Source: Arsenophonus endosymbiont of Ceratovacuna japonica
GTDB taxonomy: Bacteria > Pseudomonadota > Gammaproteobacteria > Enterobacterales > Enterobacteriaceae
NCBI GenBank assembly: GCA_024349725.1
Contig: AP026064.1
Coordinates: 1-64,000, forward strand
Direction of reading: 5' to 3'
DNA length: 64,000 nucleotides
Shown: piece by piece, positions 5,243 to 51,823 of the stretch
Numbering within the stretch: the stretch's first letter is position 1
Layout: each line of letters starts with the position of its first letter
Made by a program: the position numbers and the translations under genes
Notes under the pieces: generated by a model
Seen by the model: only the letters and a program-made list of their open reading frames with translations
Told to the model about the DNA's origin: nothing
Database searches by the model: none

Positions 5243-6020
5243 TTATATATAATTAATTTGTATATTTTAATTTTTTTATATTTTTTTTAAATATTTAAAA
5301 TTAATAATTAAAATCAATTTTAAAATTAAAATTTTAATTAATATATTAATAAATATTTTATAATATATTATATTATAAAATATTTATTTAAGTCTTAAAA
5401 AATTATGTTACAAACAATAATAAAATTATATATTAAAAAATAAAATAGTAAAATAATATAATTTAAATTATAATAATATATTTTATTTATTATTTTTATA
5501 TTTAATATATTTTATATAATTTCTAATAACGTACTTTATAAAAAATATTATCATTAATATTTTAAGATAAAATATACTAAATAAATTATACTTAATTTAT
5601 ATAAATTATTGATATTTATATTATCTTAATTATTATATATATATCTTTATATAAATTTTTATTATTATTTATATTATAATGAAATTATTTAACTTAAAAA
5701 ATTTTAATATTTTACTTAAAGTAATTTATTATAATATATTAAATATTAACTCAAATTTAAAAAAATTTATAAGACAATAAACAAGTTTTTTACTTTTTTT
5801 AATATTTAAATATTTTATTTATTAAAGTTCTTATTTTATTAATTTACATATAATTATATTGCTATAAATGTTTTATAATAAATTAATTTATTTTTTATTT
5901 TAACTAATAAATAAATTATATATTTAAATAATTAGTAAATTCATTGAATATAAAAATATTTAATTTTAAATTTATTTTATTTTTAATTAATTAATTAATA
6001 ATAATTAATATATATTAAAA

Positions 6021-6050
6021 TTATATCAAAATTTATCAAAATTTATCAAA
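6021..6050. repeat. 10-bp tandem repeat, three copies
   Basis: The unit ATTTATCAAA occurs twice exactly (6031-6040, 6041-6050), preceded by the variant TTATATCAAA (6021-6030). The period is close to one helical turn. TTATCAAAA shares 7 of 9 positions with the DnaA box TTATCCACA, but similarity this weak is expected by chance in such AT-rich DNA. Confidence 0.55.
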
Positions 6051-7522
6051 AAAAAATAAAATAATAACTATTTATAACATAAATAATTATTATAAAAATT
6101 AATACATAAACAAATTAATTAACTATAATATATTTTATACTATATAATTTATAATTAAAATAAAAATTTATATAAAATATTCATATATTATTTTATTCAA
6201 ACTATTAAATTTATTAATATCAATATAAAAAAATAAATATTAAATATAAATAATTAATTATTTATATTTAAGTAAAAATTTAATTATTATAAAAGTAGAA
6301 TTTTATAATTATAAATTATTTATTTTGTTAAAATATTTAATATTCTTACTTATTATTTATTAAAATTAATAAAGATTAAATATGAATTAATATAATATAT
6401 AAATATATTAAACATAAATATATTAATAATTATTTATTAAACTATTATTATATATTACTTTAATAATTAATTTATATAATTTAATATATTATAAATTATA
6501 AATAAATAATTATATATTTTACAATAATTATTTTAATAAATTTATCTATAAAATAGATACATTTATTAAGATTTTTAAATAAATTATAAAAATAATTATA
6601 GTTATTAGTAATTTTTTACAAAAATTAAATTCACAGTTAATAAAAAAATAATTATATCTATATTTAAATATTATTATTTTTTATAAATGCTTTAAATTAC
6701 CAATTAAAATAATAATAATTTTATATATGATATTATTTTCTTATTTTATTTTTAATTTATTTATTATTTATAAGATATTCAGTAATTATTAAACTGATAA
6801 TTTATATATTATATTAGTATCTATAAATTTTATTTACTAAATAAAATTATTTAAATATAATTAATTAATTTTTAAATAAAAACAAATATTAAATACAATA
6901 TAGTATAATATTTAATTTAATATTTTTTTTTACAAAATGAAAAAATTTATTATTTAATAATTTTAACGAATATCTTTGCTATATAAATAATAATAGTATT
7001 TAAAAAATAATAATTATAATTTTAATAATATTAACTATCATTAAACTTATAATTATTAGAAATATTATATAATAAAATATAAATATTATTAATTTAAAAC
7101 ATTATAAAAAAAATTTAAACTATACTTATTAAGTAAGATATTTATTATTAATTAATTATATATAATAATATAATATTCATATATATTAATTATTAATTAA
7201 TTTTACTACATAATATTTAATATAGAAAAAATTAAAATACAAATAAACTATATTAATAAATATATTTATATTAATAATCATATTTAATTTTATTTATTAC
7301 AATAAAAACTTAAATATAATATTATTAATTTATTTTAATTTTAAAAAAATAACATTATTAAAATATAATAATATAATAATTAATTATATTATATATTATA
7401 AAATTAATTTATATAACAATATTTAATATATTAATTAATATATTATTAATAATTAATTATGAAAATATATTATTTCATTGACTGATTAATTACATTATAA
7501 AAAAATTATAATTAATAATTAT

Positions 7523-7556
7523 ATAGTAATTATTGATTATAATTAATAATTACTAT
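7523..7556. repeat. Near-perfect 34-bp palindrome in the gyrB-metG gap
   Basis: The outer arms ATAGTAATTATT (7523-7534) and AATAATTACTAT (7545-7556) are exact reverse complements. They flank a centre of ATTATAAT bounded by one G/T pair, so 16 of 17 positions pair. It lies between convergent genes. Confidence 0.55.
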
Positions 7557-8072
7557 TAATATAAATATATAAAAATTAAGTAAAATATATACTTTATTAC
7601 TTTTAATTTATTAAAATATTAAGTATTAATTTATTATATATATAAGTAATAATAAACTATAATTAAAAAGAAATAATATTTAAAAATTAAATTTAATAAA
7701 TTACTAGTATAATAATCTAATAAATATTTATATTAAAATTAATAAAAAATATTTTTTATAATTTAAACAATTAATTTTATTTTTATTTATTTTACATATA
7801 TAATTACTTGTAATTAAAATTAAAATTTCATAATAATATTTAATTATAATCAAAAATATTATAATTTTATAAAAATTAAAATATATTATATTAATAATAT
7901 ATTCATAATAATAACATATTAAATATATTTAATGTTTTAAATATAAATAAATTAATAAAATATTTAAAATTTATTATTTTTTAATATTAAAATGCTAGTA
8001 AATTAAATTGCTTAATAGAAAAAATTTAATAATATGATTATATTTAAATTATAAAAATTATTATTTATAATA

Positions 8073-15592: not shown

Positions 15593-18041
15593 ACATTATA
15601 ATAATATATAGAATAATTTAATATATAAATAATCTTTATAAAAATATTTTATTTTTGTAAATATTCTTATTATATATAATTTAAAATTATTATTTGTAAT
15701 AACTAATTATTTACTTAAGTAAATTTTTTAAAATATATTAATAATTAATTTTTTAATTTATATATAAATAATATATTTTATTTTAATTATTATTATGATA
15801 TTTTAAATTAATAATAAATATATAATATATAAGTATTTTTATTTATAAATATAATATAAAATATAATTTATTTATAATAATTTACATTATTAATAATATA
15901 AATTAATAATTATATTTAAATCAAATATAATATTAATAATATTATTTGATTATAAAAATAGTAATATTTAGAAAAAAAATTAATTAACTATTTTATAATT
16001 AAATAATTATTATAGGGTTATTTAACAAAATTTATAATTTATTATGCATTAATAATGTTATTAAAATTTATATAAATAATATATAAAATATAATAAATTT
16101 TATAATTAACTTAATAAATATTAAATTTATATAGTCAAATTATTATAATATAATAATAATTAATTAATAATTAATTTAATGATAATATTTAAATTAACAT
16201 AAAATCATATTAAGTATTTTTGCTATTATTAATATTTAAATTATTTAATTATATTTTAGATAATTTATATAAATATATTTATTACTATTTCATAATTTAA
16301 TTCTTTAATTATATAAATAAAAAAATAAATTATATTTAAATTCTATAATATTTATATAAAATTAAAATTTTATATATATTAATTTTATATTAAATAAAAT
16401 TTATTAATATAATAATATTACATGATTTTTAAAAATATTATATATAATAAAATTTATAATTTTATTATTAATAAAATTTAATATAATAACAATTATATAT
16501 AATATTTTCATTATTTTATATATTTTTTTAAATATTAATTCATTTTTATATATTATTTTACACTTATATATTAATTTAAGAATAATATTTTAAAAATTAA
16601 AAATATATATATAATTATTTTTATTTTTTTTACATTTATTAAATATAATTGAATAAAATTAAAATTAATTAATTATTGTACTTAAAATAAGTATTAGTAT
16701 TATTATTTATGTATAAATAAATTAAATTATTAATATATTATTATTTATTAAATTATATTTACATTAATATTATTTTTTATTATTAAATAATATTAAATAT
16801 ATTATTAAATTTTTACTTTAATTGTATATTTTTACTATAATTAATAATTTATTAACTTATAATATTATATATTCTATATAAATTATTTGTAGTATAAATT
16901 ACTTAATTTTAATTTAATAATATAAAAATATATTTATTATTCAATTTAATTATTTTTTTATTTATAATAACATTATATATATTGTTAATAATTAATAATT
17001 TACAAATTAAATTTATTATTATATGTTTAAATTATATAATAGATAATATTTAAAAAATTAATTTTTAATATAAAATAAAATTAAATATATAATTTAAGTT
17101 TAATTTACTTTATAATTTATTAATTATTTTATTAATAAAATAATTAATTATCAATTATTAATAAAAAATTTTATTATACTTGATATTTTATATAATAATT
17201 TATATATAATTTATCAAATAATAATAATTTATTAAAACTAATATTTATATTAAATCCATTTATTATTTAAATATTTTACGATAAGTATTAATTTATTTAT
17301 AATACAAAATAAAATTTTAAATAAAATTAAATTAAAAATAAACATTACATATAACTATATAATAACAATTTTTACAAACCATACTTATAAATAATGTTTA
17401 ATTAAATTATTAAATAAATAATAATTTATAAAAATTAAATTATCAAATATTTAAAACTTTTACACATTTTAATATAAAATATATTATTTATTAAAAATAT
17501 ATTATTTTAATAATTAAATTATATATTTAATTTTTTAATAAAAAAATTATTATTTAATATAATTAAATAAATTCATTATAATATATAAATAATATAAAAT
17601 TATATTTTTATTTAATAAATAAAAATTTTATTATTAATATATATTTATAATAAATTTAAGCATACTTTAATTAATAAAATTAACTATTAAAGTAAAAACT
17701 ATTCATATTTTATAATTAATTATAAAATATGAATATAATAAAAAAATACATATTAAATATTTTTTTTTAAAAATCTATCAATATATAAAATAAAATTTAT
17801 TTTATATAAAAATAAATGTTAAATTTAATAAATAATAACTAAATATAATATATTATATTATTTAAAAATAACAATTAATTAAATATTAATAACATATAAT
17901 TAGTAGTAAATATTTTTATTAAATATAAAATAATTTTATTTATAAAGTTTATTTTATCTTACTTAAATTATAATATATATTATAATATATTAATATTAAT
18001 TAATTTAATATACTTTTATTTGATTAAATAATAAATATTAA
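15593..18041. other. 2.4-kb AT desert between convergent gnd and folE
   Basis: These 2,449 bases are almost pure A/T and have no recognisable coding or RNA gene. The only marked structure is at 17663-17735: a small hairpin (arms TACTTTAAT/ATTAAAGTA) followed at once by a perfect 36-bp palindrome. Transcripts from gnd and folE run toward each other here. Confidence 0.7.
17700..17735. repeat. Perfect 36-bp palindrome in the gnd-folE gap
   Basis: The half-site TATTCATATTTTATAATT (17700-17717) is followed directly by its exact reverse complement (17718-17735). There is no spacer. The sequence could extrude as a cruciform or form an 18-bp RNA hairpin in either transcript direction. A neighbouring shorter inverted repeat starts at 17663. 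A bidirectional terminator is possible but unproven. Confidence 0.6.
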
Positions 18042-43533: not shown

Positions 43534-44817
43534 TTATATAATTTGTTTATTTGTAACTATTTTTTTTATGGCTTGAGTTAATTTAGTTAATTGCTCTTTA
43601 TTAATAATATAAGGTGGCATAATATAAATTATTTTACCAAATGGTCTAATCCAAACTCCTTCAGAAACAAAATAATGTTGTAATTTAGCTACATTAACTA
43701 TTTTTTTCATTTCAACTACACCAATTGCTCCTAAAACACGTACATCAGATACTTGAGGATGATTTATTAATGGTAACAGTTCAGTCATTAATTGAACCTC
43801 AATATCTTTTACTAATTTTTCCCATGAACTATTTCTTAACAAAGTAATATTAGCATTAGCTATCGCACAAGCCAATGGATTTCCCATAAAAGTAGATCCA
43901 TGCATAAAATAATTTACTTTATCTTTACTAATAATATTTGCAATACTACGACTAGTTATAGTAGCTGATAGAGTAATATAACCACCTGTTAATGCTTTGC
44001 CTAAACATAAAATATCTGGAACAATAGAGCTATGTTGGTAAGCAAATAATTTACCAGTACGACCAAATCCAGTAGCTATTTCATCCACAATAAGTAAAAT
44101 ATTATATTGATTACATAATTCTCTTACTTCATTTAAATAATTTGGATGATAAATTCTCATACCACCAGCTCCTTGAACAATAGGTTCAAGAATAATAGCA
44201 GCAATTTTATTAGATTGCTCTTTTAATAATTTTTGCAATGGCATCAATTCTTCTGTTTTCCATGGTTCATAAAAGCCACATTTAGGGGCTGGAATAAAAA
44301 AAGATACAGGAAAATAACTATTATAAATTTTATGTATTGAATTTTTGGGATCACAAACTAACATAGCACCAAAAGTATCGCCATGATATCCATATTGTAA
44401 TGAAACAAATGTATGACGTTTTTCACCTTTAGCTTGCCAATATTGCAATGCCATTTTTAATGCTATTTCTATTGCAACTGAACCAGAATCAGCAAGAAAG
44501 ATGCATTCTAACTTATTATCAATTATTTCAATTAATTGTAGGCATAAAGAAATAGCTGCCGGATGAGTAATTCCACCAAACATAACATGAGACATATTTG
44601 ATAATTGTTGTATAGCTGCTTGATTTAATATTGGATGGTTATAACCATGAATAGCTGCCCACCAAGAAGACATACCATCAATTAATTTTCTTCCATCAGA
44701 TAATTCAAGTTCAACACCTGATGCTCGTATAATAGGATAAGTTGGCATTGGTTTCATAATTGAAGTATATGGATGCCAAATATGTTTAGCATCAAAAGTA
44801 ATATCATTAAATTGCAT
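43534..44817 (-). CDS. bioA: 7,8-diaminopelargonate synthase BioA
   Basis: BioA transfers an amino group from S-adenosylmethionine to KAPA, giving DAPA, in biotin synthesis. The product has 427 residues (E. coli 429), a fold-type I PLP enzyme. Landmarks are HIWHPYTSI, SSWWAAIHGYNHP, the PLP-phosphate region LADSGSVAIEIALKM, VDEIATGFGRTG with the ring Asp, and the Schiff-base Lys of CLGKALTGGY. HGSTFMGNPLACA is conserved. It is divergent from bioB across 101 bases, as in E. coli. No clear Shine-Dalgarno is seen before its ATG. Confidence 0.97.
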   Translation of the reverse strand: MQFNDITFDAKHIWHPYTSIMKPMPTYPIIRASGVELELSDGRKLIDGMSSWWAAIHGYNHPILNQAAIQQLSNMSHVMFGGITHPAAISLCLQLIEIIDNKLECIFLADSGSVAIEIALKMALQYWQAKGEKRHTFVSLQYGYHGDTFGAMLVCDPKNSIHKIYNSYFPVSFFIPAPKCGFYEPWKTEELMPLQKLLKEQSNKIAAIILEPIVQGAGGMRIYHPNYLNEVRELCNQYNILLIVDEIATGFGRTGKLFAYQHSSIVPDILCLGKALTGGYITLSATITSRSIANIISKDKVNYFMHGSTFMGNPLACAIANANITLLRNSSWEKLVKDIEVQLMTELLPLINHPQVSDVRVLGAIGVVEMKKIVNVAKLQHYFVSEGVWIRPFGKIIYIMPPYIINKEQLTKLTQAIKKIVTNKQII

Positions 44818-44918
44818 AATATATAATAAAACTCAATTTATTTATTTATTTTAGTTGACATGATAACGTACTTATTTAAACTGGCAAGACTTTTTATTTT
44901 ATAAAGGAGAATAGTATA
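44818..44918. promoter_or_regulatory. bioA-bioB divergent control region, possible eroded BirA operator
   Basis: This 101-base region separates the divergent bio genes. Toward bioB a promoter-like pair is visible: TTGACA (44855-44860), 16 bases, TAAACT (44877-44882), then AAAGGAGAATAGTATA before the bioB ATG. E. coli BirA binds a palindrome with arms TTGTAAACC and GGTTTACAA. Here AGTTG (44853-44857) and CAAG (44885-44888) sit at almost the same separation, but the inner bases do not match, so any operator is degenerate. The promoter match is moderate and the operator is speculative. Confidence 0.4.
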
Positions 44919-45950
44919 ATGAAAAAACCATGGACACTCAATAAAGCAGAAAATTTATTTGATTTACCTTTTTTTACATTACTTTTTAAAGCTCAAAAAA
45001 TTCATCGTAAACATTTTGATCCACAACAGATTCAAATTAGTACACTACTATCTGTTAAAACAGGAGCTTGTCCAGAAGATTGTAAATATTGTCCACAAAG
45101 TGCTCGATATAAAACTGGATTAAAAACAGAAAGATTACTAGAAGTACAAAAAGTAATAGAATCTGCGAAGCAAGCTAAAAAATCTGGTTCAACACGTTTT
45201 TGTATGGGTGCTGCATGGAGAAATCCACATGAACGAGATATGTTACATTTAGAAACTATGATAAAAGAAGTTAAATTATTAGGCATGGAAACTTGTATGA
45301 CATTAGGTACACTAAATAACCAACAAGCACAACGATTAGCAAATGCGGGACTTGATTATTATAATCATAATTTAGATACTTCACCAGAGTTTTATAGTTC
45401 TATTATTACTACCAGAACTTATCAGGATCGTCTTGATACAATTGATAAAGTTCGTAAAGCTGGCATGAAAGTTTGTTCTGGTGGTATTATTGGTTTAGGT
45501 GAAAAAGTTACTGATCGAGCTGCACTATTAGTTCAGTTAGCTAATTTACCTAAAGCTCCAGAAAGTGTTCCAATAAATATGTTAATCAAAATAAAAGGTA
45601 CTCCACTGGAAAATAATGAAGATATAGATCCATTTAATTTTATTCGAACTATTGCAGTTGCACGAATTATGATGCCAACTTCATTTGTACGACTCTCTGC
45701 TGGTCGTGAAAAAATGAATGAGCAAATGCAAGCACTTTGTTTTATAGCTGGAGCTAATTCTATTTTCTATGGTTGTAAATTATTAACTGCTTCTAACCCT
45801 GAAAAAGATAAAGATCAACAACTTTTTCGTAAGTTAAATATTAATCCACAAAATACTGAAATAACATTAAATAATTGGAAAAAAATAAAATATCAAGAAG
45901 ATGCTATAAACCAAATAGATACAGAACAATTTTATAATGCATCATCATAA
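44919..45950 (+). CDS. bioB: Biotin synthase BioB
   Basis: BioB inserts sulfur into dethiobiotin, the last step of biotin synthesis. The product has 343 residues (E. coli 346), a radical SAM TIM barrel. The [4Fe-4S] motif is in [13 protein letters not shown]. The [2Fe-2S] ligands are the Cys of [20 protein letters not shown] and [12 protein letters not shown], plus the Arg of [19 protein letters not shown] is conserved. A strong AAAGGAG lies upstream. In E. coli bioF follows immediately; here 967 gene-free bases lead to bioD. Confidence 0.98.
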
Positions 45951-46917
45951 TAAAATAATTTAATTTATTAATTTAATATGCATAAATAATATATATTTTA
46001 GAAATAAAAATAAATCTTAAAATAAAACTTATAACTTAATGCTAAATTAATAGTAATAATTTATATTATTAATAATAATTATATTTATAATTAAATAAAT
46101 AATTTATAAATTAACTAATTTTTTTATAAATGATTATATTAATTACTTATTATTATAATAATAAATTAATATATAATTATAATATTAATAAATTAATATC
46201 ACAGTATGGCTAAAAATTTTTAGCCATACATTAATTACTAATAATATAATATATCTTACTAATAAATATTATAATATTTTATTAATATTTAATTTAAAAT
46301 ATTATATTATTTTAATTGCTTAATATATTATTAAATTTTAATTATTATTGAAATTTCATTTAACATAGAAATAATTAATTTATAAAATCAAATAATAATA
46401 AAATAGTATAATTTTAATTATTAATAAAAATTAAAAAAATATAAATAATATTTAATATATAATAAATAATTATTTATATAATATATTTATTATTAAATAT
46501 ATATTATAATATTATTATAAACTTAAAATTGTGATTTAAATTTAAGATAATTAAATAAATTATTAATAATTATATTTAAATTAATATATATTATTAATTA
46601 TTAAGTTTGTAAAATACACATTTTATATAAATAAATTAATAATATAATATTATAAATATATATATATTATATTAATAAAAGTATATAGTTTATAAAATGA
46701 TTTTTTCTATTATAATTAAATATTAATTATTAAAAATTATCATTAACAATAAAAATAATAATATAGTAATTAATGTATTAATTACTATATTAATAATATA
46801 ATAAATATATAATATTAATATAATTTATATATTAAATAAAAAATTAATATTATATATGTCAATAATGAAATTTATTAACTAAATTATTTAATATATTAAT
46901 TTATGGAATTTTACATT
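45951..46917. other. Gene-free gap at the lost bioF-bioC position
   Basis: E. coli has bioF and bioC (about 1.9 kb together) between bioB and bioD. Here 967 AT-rich bases remain, with no readable fragment of either. The one striking element is a 26-bp perfect palindrome with a GC-containing core at 46204-46229. Loss by decay plus partial deletion is the simplest reading. Confidence 0.75.
46204..46229. repeat. Perfect 26-bp palindrome with GGC/GCC stem
   Basis: The half-site GTATGGCTAAAAA (46204-46216) is followed directly by its exact reverse complement TTTTTAGCCATAC (46217-46229). It is the only palindrome in the deserts with several G:C pairs, about 250 bases past bioB. The order stem-A5T5-stem puts the T-run inside the hairpin, not after it, so it is not a textbook intrinsic terminator. 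A protein-binding operator or bidirectional RNA hairpin is possible. Confidence 0.7.
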
Positions 46918-47595
46918 GTGAATAAATGTTTTTTTCTTACGGGTACAGACACAAATGTTGGCAAAACAGTAACTAGTTGTTTATTATTGCAAGCTGCTTC
47001 AAAATTAGGTTATAAAACAGCAGGTTATAAACCAATATCCTCAGGTAATGAACAATCAACTGTTAGTTTAAAAAACTTAGATGCTAAATTACTAAAAATA
47101 AATAGTAATATTAAACTAAATTATTATGATATAAATCCTATTAGTTTTATGCAAAAAACATCTCCACATATTGCAAGTCAACTATCTGAAAAAATTATAG
47201 ATTGGCAAATTATGTCATCTGGATTAAACAAATTAAAACAATTAGCAAATTGGATTATTGTTGAAGGAATTGGAGGATGGTATACACCTATTTGTAATAA
47301 ACAAACTTTAGCCGATTGGGTTATACAACAACAATTACCAGTAATATTAGTAGTTGGTATTAAGTTAGGATGTATTAATCATGCTATATTAACATTAGAA
47401 GCTATTGAAAAAAGTGGTTTATTACTTTCAGGTTGGATAGCTAATGAAATTATTTCTCCTGATCAATATAAAAAATATTATTTACAAATATTACAACAAA
47501 AGATTTCGGCACCACTTTTAGGGATTATACCATATTTACCTAATTGCAAATCTTATATAATTAACAATTTTATTGATTTAAATAAATTATTATAA
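46918..47595 (+). CDS. bioD: Dethiobiotin synthetase BioD
   Basis: BioD closes the ureido ring of DAPA with CO2 and ATP to give dethiobiotin. I choose GTG 46918: it has TGGAA upstream (GGA at 46905-46907) and gives 225 residues, the E. coli length, with an N-terminus matching (M)NKCFFLTGTD. An in-frame ATG at 46903 has no Shine-Dalgarno but would add five residues. The P-loop GTDTNVGKTVTS, GYKPISSG, VEGIGGWYTP and VVGIKLGCINHA are all intact. With bioA and bioB it covers the last three biotin steps. Confidence 0.95.
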   Translation: MNKCFFLTGTDTNVGKTVTSCLLLQAASKLGYKTAGYKPISSGNEQSTVSLKNLDAKLLKINSNIKLNYYDINPISFMQKTSPHIASQLSEKIIDWQIMSSGLNKLKQLANWIIVEGIGGWYTPICNKQTLADWVIQQQLPVILVVGIKLGCINHAILTLEAIEKSGLLLSGWIANEIISPDQYKKYYLQILQQKISAPLLGIIPYLPNCKSYIINNFIDLNKLL

Positions 47596-50419
47596 TAATT
47601 ATAATTTTATTATAACTTAATATTATATGAATTAAATTATTAAAATAAAAATATATACAATAAAATATAAATAAATTATAATTATTAATATATATATTAA
47701 TAATTAATTAATTGATAAAATTTTAATTTTTATTTAATATATAAATATTTATTTGTTAAAAAAATTAACTAAAATTTATTTAATAAAATTATATTTAAAT
47801 AATATAATTTTATTATAATTTAATAATATATTATGTATATTTATATTACTATTAAATAAGATATTATAATATTATAATTTTAATAATTAATTAAAAGTAA
47901 AAATAAATACTATTTTTAATAAAAAAATATAAAAATTTGTTTTAAATATTTAAAATAATTATTTTATATAATATATAATTAATATTTTTTAATGTAAAAT
48001 ATTAGTTATTTTATTCAAACTTATTTATATTAATAATATTAACTAATATGATTTATACTTATATATAAAATAATTATTATTATATTTTATATAATTACAA
48101 TAATTTTAACTATTTATTACAATAAAAATTATTATAGTAATATATTAAATTTAATAAAAATTATTATAATAAATATAATCATTATTAATTTATTATTTAT
48201 CTTTTATAAATATATTTTATTTAAAAATAATTTATTTATACTTTTTTAAAATAAATTATTAATTATATCAATTGAATATTATTAATAATTTATAATAATA
48301 ATTATATATATGATATTGATTTTTTTTTTAGATATTCAAATTAAATAATTTAATTTGAATATTAATTTTAATATATATAATAATAAACATATATAGTAAT
48401 TATATTTAACATAATAATTATATATAATTAAAAATTACTTTAAAATTATCATATTGCAATGAATAATAATTTATTAATTTATTTATAATGTTACTTTATT
48501 TACTAAATATGATAATTTATATATTATTAATATTTTATTATTCATAAATAAAATATTTTTTTGTTTTTAAAATTTTATATTTAATATATATTTATATTTA
48601 TTTAAAATTAAAAATTATTTTTATATATAAATTATTTTATTTATTAAATTTTAAAATTATTAATTATAATTACTTAATTGTCTTATTATTATAATAGTAA
48701 TTTTTATAATAAATATTCTAATATTTAAATATTAGAATTTATAAATAAAACTATAATATAATTTATTTTTATTTTAAGTGTTTATTAAATAGTTTTATTA
48801 TTTTATTAATTAATAATATCTTTATATAATATTTTATAATTTATTTATTATAAAAATAAATTATAAACTTTATTGATATATTAATTATATAATAATTTTA
48901 TTAAATATTTTATTTTAATGCAACTATTAATTATTTAATATAATTATTTGTATATTTATAATTAGAAAATAAATATTAAAATTAAATATATAATTAATAA
49001 AAGAATAAAATAATTACTATTTAAAAATAATTATATAAATTAATTAATATATATTAATTAATTTATATTATATTTATACATAACAATATTATATATAGAT
49101 AATTTATTTTTATATAAAAACTAAACTCAAATATTAAAAAAAATTAACAATTTTGATATTATACTTTAATAAATTAATTTTATTTAAAAATTTATTATAT
49201 ATATTTATAGTAACAATAATTACATTTATTTAATAAATAATATTTAAAAAAATTATAACTTAGTAATTAATATTTATTATTTAATTAAATTAACATTAAT
49301 AATAAATTTAATAATAAATATTTTCATTTAAAATATAATATTTAATTATCAATAATTAATAATAAAATAGTGTATTAAATATCATTTAAGTATTAAAATA
49401 TATTATAAAATAATAAAATTATTTATAATAAAATTTATTTTTATATTATATTTAAATATTATTAAATTTATAAAATTATTTTATTGTATTTAATTTTAAT
49501 AAATAATATTATTAAATAATTATAATATTAAATAATATTTACTATATTAAATAGTAATAATTAACTATTATTAAAATTTAAGTGATATTCTAAATTTAAT
49601 TTAATTTAATATAATAATAAAAGTGTAATTATTACAGGTGTATTTTAAATAATAAAAATATTTACTAATTTTTTGTTTATAAAAAACTATAATTACTTTT
49701 ATTTAAAAAATTAATTAATTCATTTTATATTTAAAATATTATAAATATATTTAATTATTATTGTAAAAAATCTTATTTAAATATATTATAAACAATAATT
49801 ATTATTTATTAATATTATTAATAATTTAATATTTATATAGAAAACATACTATATTTAATTATTTATATCATAAATTATTTATAAATATAATTATTAAAAT
49901 TATAATATATTTTAAGATATAAAATATAACAATTAGTTATTATTAAAATAATAACTAATTGTTAATTTATTACTTAAAATATAATTTAATTAAATATTTA
50001 TAATAATTAATATATAAAAATATTAAAATTATTTATATAAAAATTAAAAAAATATATAAATATTTTATTTTAAATTATTAAAATATATATATTTTAATAA
50101 TATTCATTATATATTATATTAATAAATACATTATTTTATCTTAAATTAATATTATTACTTTATTATTATATAATTATATTTAATATAACTTTATATTAGT
50201 TAAAATTTTTATTAAAAAAATTAATAAAACTATATATTTAATATAAATTTATAATTATAATAACAAATATTTTAATTATTTATTAAATTTAATTAATTAT
50301 TATTAATTAATAAAATATTATTTTTATAAAAATTAAAATAATAAAAATTAATTTTAAATAATAAAAAATTTATATTTATTTTATTTTATATAATTAAAAA
50401 ATTTATATTATAATTATTT
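47596..50419. other. 2.8-kb AT desert between convergent bioD and rplQ
   Basis: These 2,824 bases join the biotin locus to the alpha operon, a junction not found in E. coli. No gene, tRNA or coding remnant is recognised. An inverted repeat with 18-bp arms lies at 49927-49964. A few extra G/C bases occur at about 49620-49645, with a small palindrome TGTAATTATTACA. Confidence 0.7.
49927..49964. repeat. Inverted repeat, 18-bp arms, 2-nt centre
   Basis: The left arm TAACAATTAGTTATTATT (49927-49944) and the right arm (49947-49964) are exact reverse complements around AA. It lies about 450 bases beyond the end of the ribosomal superoperon, between convergent genes. An end-of-operon hairpin role is possible but the distance is large. 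Confidence 0.6.
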
Positions 50420-50791
50420 TTATTTAACTTTAGTAGTAAAATTAATAAACTCAATATAAGCCATTGGTGCATTATCACCTACACGAAAACCACATTTTAT
50501 AATACGAGTATAACCACCAGCACAATTAATGAAACGCGGTCCTAGTTCATTAAATAATTTTGCTATAATTTCATTATTACGAATACTAGTAAAAACTAGT
50601 CTACGATTAGCTACGCTGTCGGTCTTGGCAAGAGTAATTAATGGTTCAATGAAACAACGCAATTCTTTTGCCTTTGGTAAAGTTGTTTTAATTATCTCAT
50701 AACGAATTAAAGAGATAGTAATATTACGAAACATAGCTTTGCGATGACTACAATTGCGGTTTAATTGACGACCACTCTTACGATGGCGCAT
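50420..50791 (-). CDS. rplQ: 50S ribosomal protein L17
   Basis: L17 is a large-subunit protein near the exit tunnel. The product has 123 residues (E. coli 127). The N-terminus [20 protein letters not shown] is near-identical to E. coli, followed by [25 protein letters not shown]. The C-terminus is slightly short. It is the last gene of the alpha operon, 42 bases after rpoA. Confidence 0.97.
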
Positions 50792-50833: not shown

Positions 50834-51823
50834 TTATTCATCAACAATACTTGCAGGAGGCCAATTTTCTAAACGAATTCCTAGTGACAAACCTCTTGAT
50901 GCTAAAACATCTTTAATTTCAGTAAGTGATTTTTTACCAAGATTTGGTGTTTTAAGCAATTCAACTTCAGTACGCTGAACCAAATCACCTATATAATGAA
51001 TAGCTTCTGCTTTTAAACAATTAGCAGAACGAACAGTTAACTCTAAATCATCAACTACACGTAATAAAATTGGATCAAACTCTGGTTTCTCATCTTTAAC
51101 TTCAACTTTAGAAATATCACGTAAATCAACAAAAGCTTCTAATTGTTCAACCAATATTGTTGCTGCACGACGTATTGCTTCTTCTGGATCAATTGTACCA
51201 TTAGTCTCCATTTCAATAATTAATTTATCTAAATCAGTTCTTTGCTCCACACGAGTAGCTTCAACATTATAAATTATACGCTCTATTGGACTATAGCATG
51301 CATCAATTAATAAACGCCCAATTGGACGCTCATATTCTTCCAAATGCATACGTGTTGAAGCCGGTACATATCCACGACCACGTTGTACTTTAATACGCAT
51401 ATTAATGATAGCATTATCATCAGTTAAATGACAAATTACATACTTAGGATTAACAATTTCAATATCATTATTAATGGTAATATCAGAAGCAAATACAGGA
51501 CCAATTCCAGATTTATTTAAAGTCAATATAACTTCATTTTTACCATGAACTTTTATTGCTAATCCTTTTATATTAAGTAAAATTTCTAGAATATCTTCTT
51601 GTATACCTTCTTTAGTACTATACTCATGTGGTACACCATCAATTTCAACTTCAGTAACAGCATATCCAGGCATAGAAGAAAGCAAAATACGACGTAGTGC
51701 ATTACCAAGAGTATGACCAAAACCACGTTCTAATGGTTCAAGAATTACTTTAGCATGCGTTGAACTAATTTGTTCTATATTAACTAAACGAGGTTTGAGA
51801 AAATCTACTACAAAATCATGCAT
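50834..51823 (-). CDS. rpoA: RNA polymerase alpha subunit
   Basis: RpoA nucleates RNA polymerase assembly and contacts UP elements and activators. The product has 329 residues, exactly as in E. coli. The N-terminal assembly domain (1-235) has [20 protein letters not shown] and [18 protein letters not shown]. The C-terminal domain (about 250-329) keeps the DNA-contacting helix region around RSANCLKAE and [16 protein letters not shown]. So upstream-element recognition is probably kept even in this regulator-poor genome. Confidence 0.98.

Follow-up and report, generated by a model that had tools for sequence, protein, structure and literature searches.

A biotin gene set confined to bioA, bioB, and bioD is already known from aphid symbionts. 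Buchnera of the pea aphid Acyrthosiphon pisum keeps bioA, bioD, and bioB, lacks bioH, bioF, and bioC, and is reported with fabI, fabB, and fabG; KAPA was named there as a possible imported precursor, and aphid metabolism seemingly does not produce it (PMC3246468). Sipha maydis and the Lachninae harbour co-obligate Serratia that are described as keeping bioA, bioB, and bioD and working from KAPA; Periphyllus lyropictus also has a co-obligate Serratia, whose bioA and bioD are reported to be pseudogenes (PMC9317480). In Candidatus Erwinia haradaeae, bioA, bioD, and bioB complement Buchnera; these genes are reported to have been acquired via horizontal transfer from relatives of Sodalis, with bioA and bioB borne on a plasmid (PMC6908640). 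The Arsenophonus of the whitefly Aleurodicus dispersus is reported to encompass bioA and bioD only, a partial set that the host is said to complete, genes similar to bioB, bioC, bioF, and bioH having been reported among the host reads (PMC6167482).

Published analyses disagree on the source of KAPA in aphids. In a metabolic model of the Cinara cedri consortium, Buchnera exports KAPA and Serratia receives it (PMC5702781), whereas for the Sipha maydis holobiont, the published account describes no KAPA synthase and concludes that biotin is not made and that phloem sap is its source (PMC12013274).

The genome of the Arsenophonus endosymbiont of the eusocial aphid Ceratovacuna japonica can be compared with these systems. 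Like pea-aphid Buchnera, it has bioA, bioB, and bioD without bioF, bioC, or bioH, but unlike that Buchnera, it represents another lineage and is not the primary symbiont. It shares with co-obligate Serratia symbiotica a Buchnera partner and intact bioA, bioB, and bioD, and differs from it in genus; with the Arsenophonus of Aleurodicus dispersus, which keeps no bioB, it shares a partial biotin set. The word “biotin” is absent from the main text of the article that reported the C. japonica symbiont genome (PMC9672956), and a literature search at the level of titles and abstract openings yielded no mention of the biotin genes of this symbiont.

The biotin genes and their surroundings

The C. japonica Arsenophonus genome was published as one closed chromosome of 853,149 bp without a plasmid (PMC9672956); its bearer is described as co-obligate, with a GC content of 18.5% (GCA_024349725.1; PMC10654098, Table 1). 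In our sample, this genome (G000) is a single contig of the published length with an estimated completeness of 99.5%, and its bases 1-64000 are the window, that is, the whole 64,000-nucleotide stretch of DNA that was analysed. The published coding density is 59.9%, and the authors regard erosion as ongoing (PMC9672956). In agreement with this density, up to base 51823, there are 14 stretches of at least 300 bp between the main genes, the longest of 2.8 kb, with a GC content of 3-11% (for example, 5243-8072, 15593-18041, and 47596-50419). With the bioB-bioD gap excluded, the other 13 stretches span 3.2-10.9% GC, the one with 10.9% containing a tRNA.

Table 1 Features of the biotin locus in the window.
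Feature	Coordinates	Strand	Description
bioA, KAPA aminotransferase (DAPA synthase)	43534..44817	-	427 aa, intact, open frame
bioA-bioB divergent promoter region	44818..44918		TTAGTTGACA at 44851-44860, common to other Arsenophonus, compared by eye
bioB, biotin synthase	44919..45950	+	343 aa, intact, open frame
Decayed bioF and bioC site	45951..46902		952 bp, GC 5.7%, no detectable remnant
bioD, dethiobiotin synthetase	46903..47595	+	230 aa, intact, open frame
AT-rich decayed stretch 3' of bioD	47596..50419		GC 4.5%, no bioF/bioC trace

The initial annotation of this DNA described bioA, bioB, and bioD as intact, and this description stands. All three are full-length and score above the cut-offs of their NCBIfam families, namely, 575 bits against 405 for bioA (TIGR00508), 418 against 225 for bioB (TIGR00433), and 176 against 83 for bioD (TIGR00347). 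Among 23 positions of the E. coli enzymes that we take to be catalytic or binding (8 in BioA, 7 in BioB, and 8 in BioD), 22 are unchanged: all 8 in BioA (Y17, W52, W53, Y144, D147, D245, K274, and R391), all 7 in BioB (C51, C55, C58, C95, C126, C186, and R258), and 7 of the 8 in BioD (T11, K15, T16, K37, D54, E115, and N175, in mature numbering). The remaining one, mature residue 12 of BioD, is N rather than E, and N is the commonest letter at this position, present in 30 of 43 aligned sequences. The ATG at 46903 gives bioD five extra residues, and the GTG at 46918 aligns with the E. coli start, so that the latter is probably the true start codon; the end point of the gap in the initial annotation, 46917, agrees with this start.

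In the larger genomes with the Arsenophonus code, TTAGTTGACA is one arm of an inverted repeat between bioA and bioB (in G003, GTCAACTAA...TTAGTTGAC), which we take to be a putative BirA operator; the opposite arm is degraded both in the window and in G002. Judging from these sequences, biotin repression of the operon may have been lost, with the promoter-like arm staying, although BirA is full-length. This bifunctional protein of 328 aa reaches 330 bits with NF008847 (cut-off 293) and 194 bits with TIGR00121 (cut-off 83); among Pfam models, only the ligase domain is matched, with no helix-turn-helix model, and the full-length NCBIfam models match from residue 1. LipB is present in the genome as well (218 aa). 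A search for a biotin importer with E. coli BioP/YigM as the query produced no match and, having had no positive control, is uninformative.

The bioF-bioC site and the rest of the chromosome

Where a fetched operon has both bioF and bioC at full length (15 cases), the distance between bioB and bioD is 1868-1958 bp. As the initial annotation stated, bioF and bioC are gone from this position in the window: only 952 bp with 5.7% GC separate the two flanking genes, and the gap contains no bioF or bioC signal beyond that of shuffled DNA. The search employed profiles built from 16 BioF and 16 BioC sequences, with 50 single-base shuffles of the gap as the control, and 27 of the 50 shuffles scored equally high for bioF and 43 of the 50 for bioC. 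In the stretch after bioD, the same profiles find nothing above shuffled DNA. Elsewhere, this remnant search was positive, detecting what is left of bioF in G047 (28 bits), as well as bioC together with a broken bioF in G004, and it was empty in G037, G038, G044, G265, and G210, all of which lack bioF. The search can thus detect younger remnants, and given that it detected none in several bioF-lacking genomes, an old loss leaves no datable trace. In G037, a bioB-bioD gap of 1140 bp at 30.6% GC is retained. The locus was probably once a complete bioA-bioBFCD; bioF and bioC were lost at this site, in all likelihood long ago, and bioH is gone as well.

On the 3' side of bioD (47596-50791), the decayed stretch is followed by the rplQ-rpoA ribosomal cluster on the opposite strand, where E. 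coli has uvrB. The junction after bioD is a rearrangement breakpoint.

The initial annotation left room for bioF elsewhere in the genome and asked for a search of the full sequence. Profile searches of the whole genome for bioF, bioC, and bioH found none of the three. The best match to the bioF profile (TIGR00858), at 27 bits, is serine hydroxymethyltransferase, as identified by NCBIfam, and the next one, at 12.7 bits, is bioA itself; for bioC (TIGR02072), the best match scores 28 bits, with the cut-off at 185, and for bioH (TIGR01738), there is no match at E<=10. Across 14 named control genomes, the bioF, bioC, and bioH searches match in 14, 14, and 13 genomes, and above the cut-off in 5, 1, and 1, respectively. 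The absence pertains to the bioF, bioC, and bioH profiles. Since the chromosome contains no profile-detectable bioF or bioC elsewhere, the pathway can run only on KAPA that is supplied from outside. A bioF-bioC pair relocated within the chromosome, or a paralogue that makes KAPA, would provide an internal source, and bio genes can indeed scatter, as in G060, where bioA lies ~67 kb from bioB. We regard such a source as highly improbable, given that the whole-genome matches to bioF and bioC are serine hydroxymethyltransferase, bioA, and weak ones far under the cut-offs, and that the published assembly consists of a single closed chromosome and includes no plasmid (PMC9672956). For profile-detectable genes, relocation is refuted by the whole-genome searches.

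Origin of the genes and recurrence of the gene set

Of the 9 genomes in the genus, 5 have a bioF that passes the cut-off, G004 has a broken one, and G000, G005, and G007 have weak matches at most; bioC passes its cut-off in 5 of the 9. In four relatives (G001, G002, G003, and G008), bioA, bioB, bioF, bioC, and bioD are clustered. In the phylogenetic tree of BioA and BioB, the proteins of the window form a group with the other four rows that carry its genus code, with 99% SH-aLRT support, and by virtue of this grouping, bioA and bioB of the window look like the lineage's own genes. Candidatus Erwinia haradaeae has the same three genes but differs in this respect from the window, where BioA and BioB belong with Arsenophonus. 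A horizontal origin of the bio genes in the window finds no support in the tree, where BioA and BioB are positioned within their own lineage. The tree is a quick one of 42 rows without bootstrap and does not include BioD; it leaves out G016 (>1.5 Mb), G005 (bioB remnant), the same-genus genomes G004, G006, and G007, as well as G060 and G168 (bioA and bioB in separate stretches, or bioB not fetched), and keeps G332 despite its short bioD.

Intermediate stages of decay are seen in G047, with a bioF remnant next to broken bioA and bioD; in G005, where bioA and bioD are intact and bioB is only a remnant; and in G006, with bioF above the cut-off and bioC broken. The genes kept in G060 are dispersed, with bioD near bioB on the opposite strand. 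In a bioB search of named genomes, none of the 80 loci kept out of 587 is titled Arsenophonus, and close records may be missing from these 80.

For a broader survey, we used a sample of 392 genomes with the same family code, sorted by hand, in which genomes of <=1.5 Mb by rounded size were considered small. At thresholds of E<=1e-20 for bioF and E<=1e-60 for bioB, with bioF remnants not counted as bioF, bioF was matched in 289 genomes and bioB in 334. Among the 66 small genomes with bioB, 31 also have bioF and 35 lack it, and there are no small genomes in the sample with bioF but without bioB; the related genomes are not independent, so that 35 versus 0 is not a test statistic, and the sample may include symbionts of hosts other than aphids. 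BioA is above the cut-off in 28 of the 35 small genomes without bioF and in all 31 with both genes.

The complete set of bioA, bioB, and bioD, in long frames with no stops inside the matches, is kept in 26 of these 35 genomes (bioA of G060 was checked for frame and stops in a separate stretch), and at E<=1e-3, neither bioF nor bioC is matched in the stretches fetched for the 26. The other nine comprise G029, G142, G193, and G387, in which bioA is not matched at E<=1e-40; G127 and G229, with only a weaker relative; G340, in which bioA is broken; G332, with a short bioD (a frame of 140 residues); and G168, in which bioB and bioD are outside the fetched stretch. G139 and G347 are marked as 8-9% contaminated. 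When mapped on the tree, the presence or absence of bioF takes 9 changes, at least 5 of them required by well-supported branches, and the bioF label shows some clustering (10 of 500 shuffles give as low a number). The convergence with Buchnera that was raised as a possibility in the initial annotation is real (PMC3246468) and wider than stated there, extending to the 26 small genomes. The Arsenophonus case is a further, independently arisen one, with native genes.

Constraint on the three genes and the source of KAPA

The GC content in bioA, bioB, and bioD is 0.34-0.45 at the first codon position, 0.32-0.36 at the second, and 0.10-0.11 at the third, against 0.057 in the gap, and this coding composition indicates that selection held the genes while the gap decayed. 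Pairwise comparison with G002 (NG86) gives dN/dS values of 0.168/0.531 for bioA, 0.143/0.781 for bioB, and 0.230/0.962 for bioD, where dS is likely compressed by AT bias. At columns invariant across 16 references with the whole operon, the window shows 2 changes in 118 in bioA, 1 in 121 in bioB, and 0 in 36 in bioD, similarly few as in G002, which keeps the whole operon (4 in 122, 0 in 121, and 1 in 37, respectively). The three genes are under continuing constraint. Given that unselected DNA in this genome drifted to ~5% GC, their retention is strong evidence of use.

Conceivably, the three genes could be the leftovers of a dying pathway, such that no KAPA arrives, biotin from sap is used, and bioA, bioB, and bioD are the next to be lost. 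A coding density of just 59.9% with erosion called ongoing (PMC9672956) would fit this scenario, as would the similar conclusion for Sipha maydis (PMC12013274), the pseudogenised bioA and bioD of the Periphyllus lyropictus Serratia (PMC9317480), and partial sets such as that of G005. We nevertheless consider it unlikely: the gap has the composition of decayed DNA, yet the three genes keep both coding composition and invariant residues, and uninterrupted retention of all three in 26 of the 35 genomes seems more than independent decay would be expected to leave.

Instead, it appears likely that the genome keeps the KAPA-to-biotin segment of the pathway and that the cell imports KAPA and finishes biotin in three steps. 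BioA would convert imported KAPA to DAPA, BioD would then produce dethiobiotin, and BioB would produce biotin. BirA would attach this biotin to the protein of the symbiont itself, and the aphid may receive some too. On this account, which we infer, the cell would have access to KAPA and take it up, express these enzymes in active form, and release biotin. Several observations speak against this explanation, namely, the remark on KAPA in aphid metabolism (PMC3246468), the no-biotin conclusion (PMC12013274), and the Serratia pseudogenes in Periphyllus lyropictus (PMC9317480), along with the existence of incomplete sets, with 7 of the 35 genomes lacking bioA above the cut-off and bioD short in G332.

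A special case of KAPA import, which we assess separately, is a split pathway in which a bacterial partner in the same aphid, Buchnera or Hamiltonella, supplies KAPA. The Cinara cedri model involves precisely such an export from Buchnera (PMC5702781); Cinara-associated Hamiltonella is reported to have lost biotin synthesis relative to facultative strains, implying that those have it (PMC6908640), and C. japonica carried Hamiltonella (PMC9672956). However, pea-aphid Buchnera is reported without bioF, bioC, and bioH (PMC3246468), and the C. japonica Hamiltonella was compared with facultative strains (PMC9672956), so that we find supply by a partner doubtful. The diet, that is, plant sap, is an alternative source of KAPA to the host or a partner, the two outside sources that the initial annotation named.

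A more general and tentative proposition, which we view as a real possibility while leaning somewhat against it, is that KAPA is a standing resource of aphids, provided by an unrecognised aphid enzyme or by sap, such that bioF and bioC are lost again and again in symbionts that are not related, which nonetheless keep the last three steps. If this holds, the published conclusion of no biotin synthesis in such a consortium would be overturned. The Arsenophonus case sharpens the disagreement in print on whether these consortia make biotin and whence the KAPA comes, and the one-way pattern among small genomes, with bioB without bioF in 35 and the reverse in none, means that the question of KAPA supply can be put to the test.
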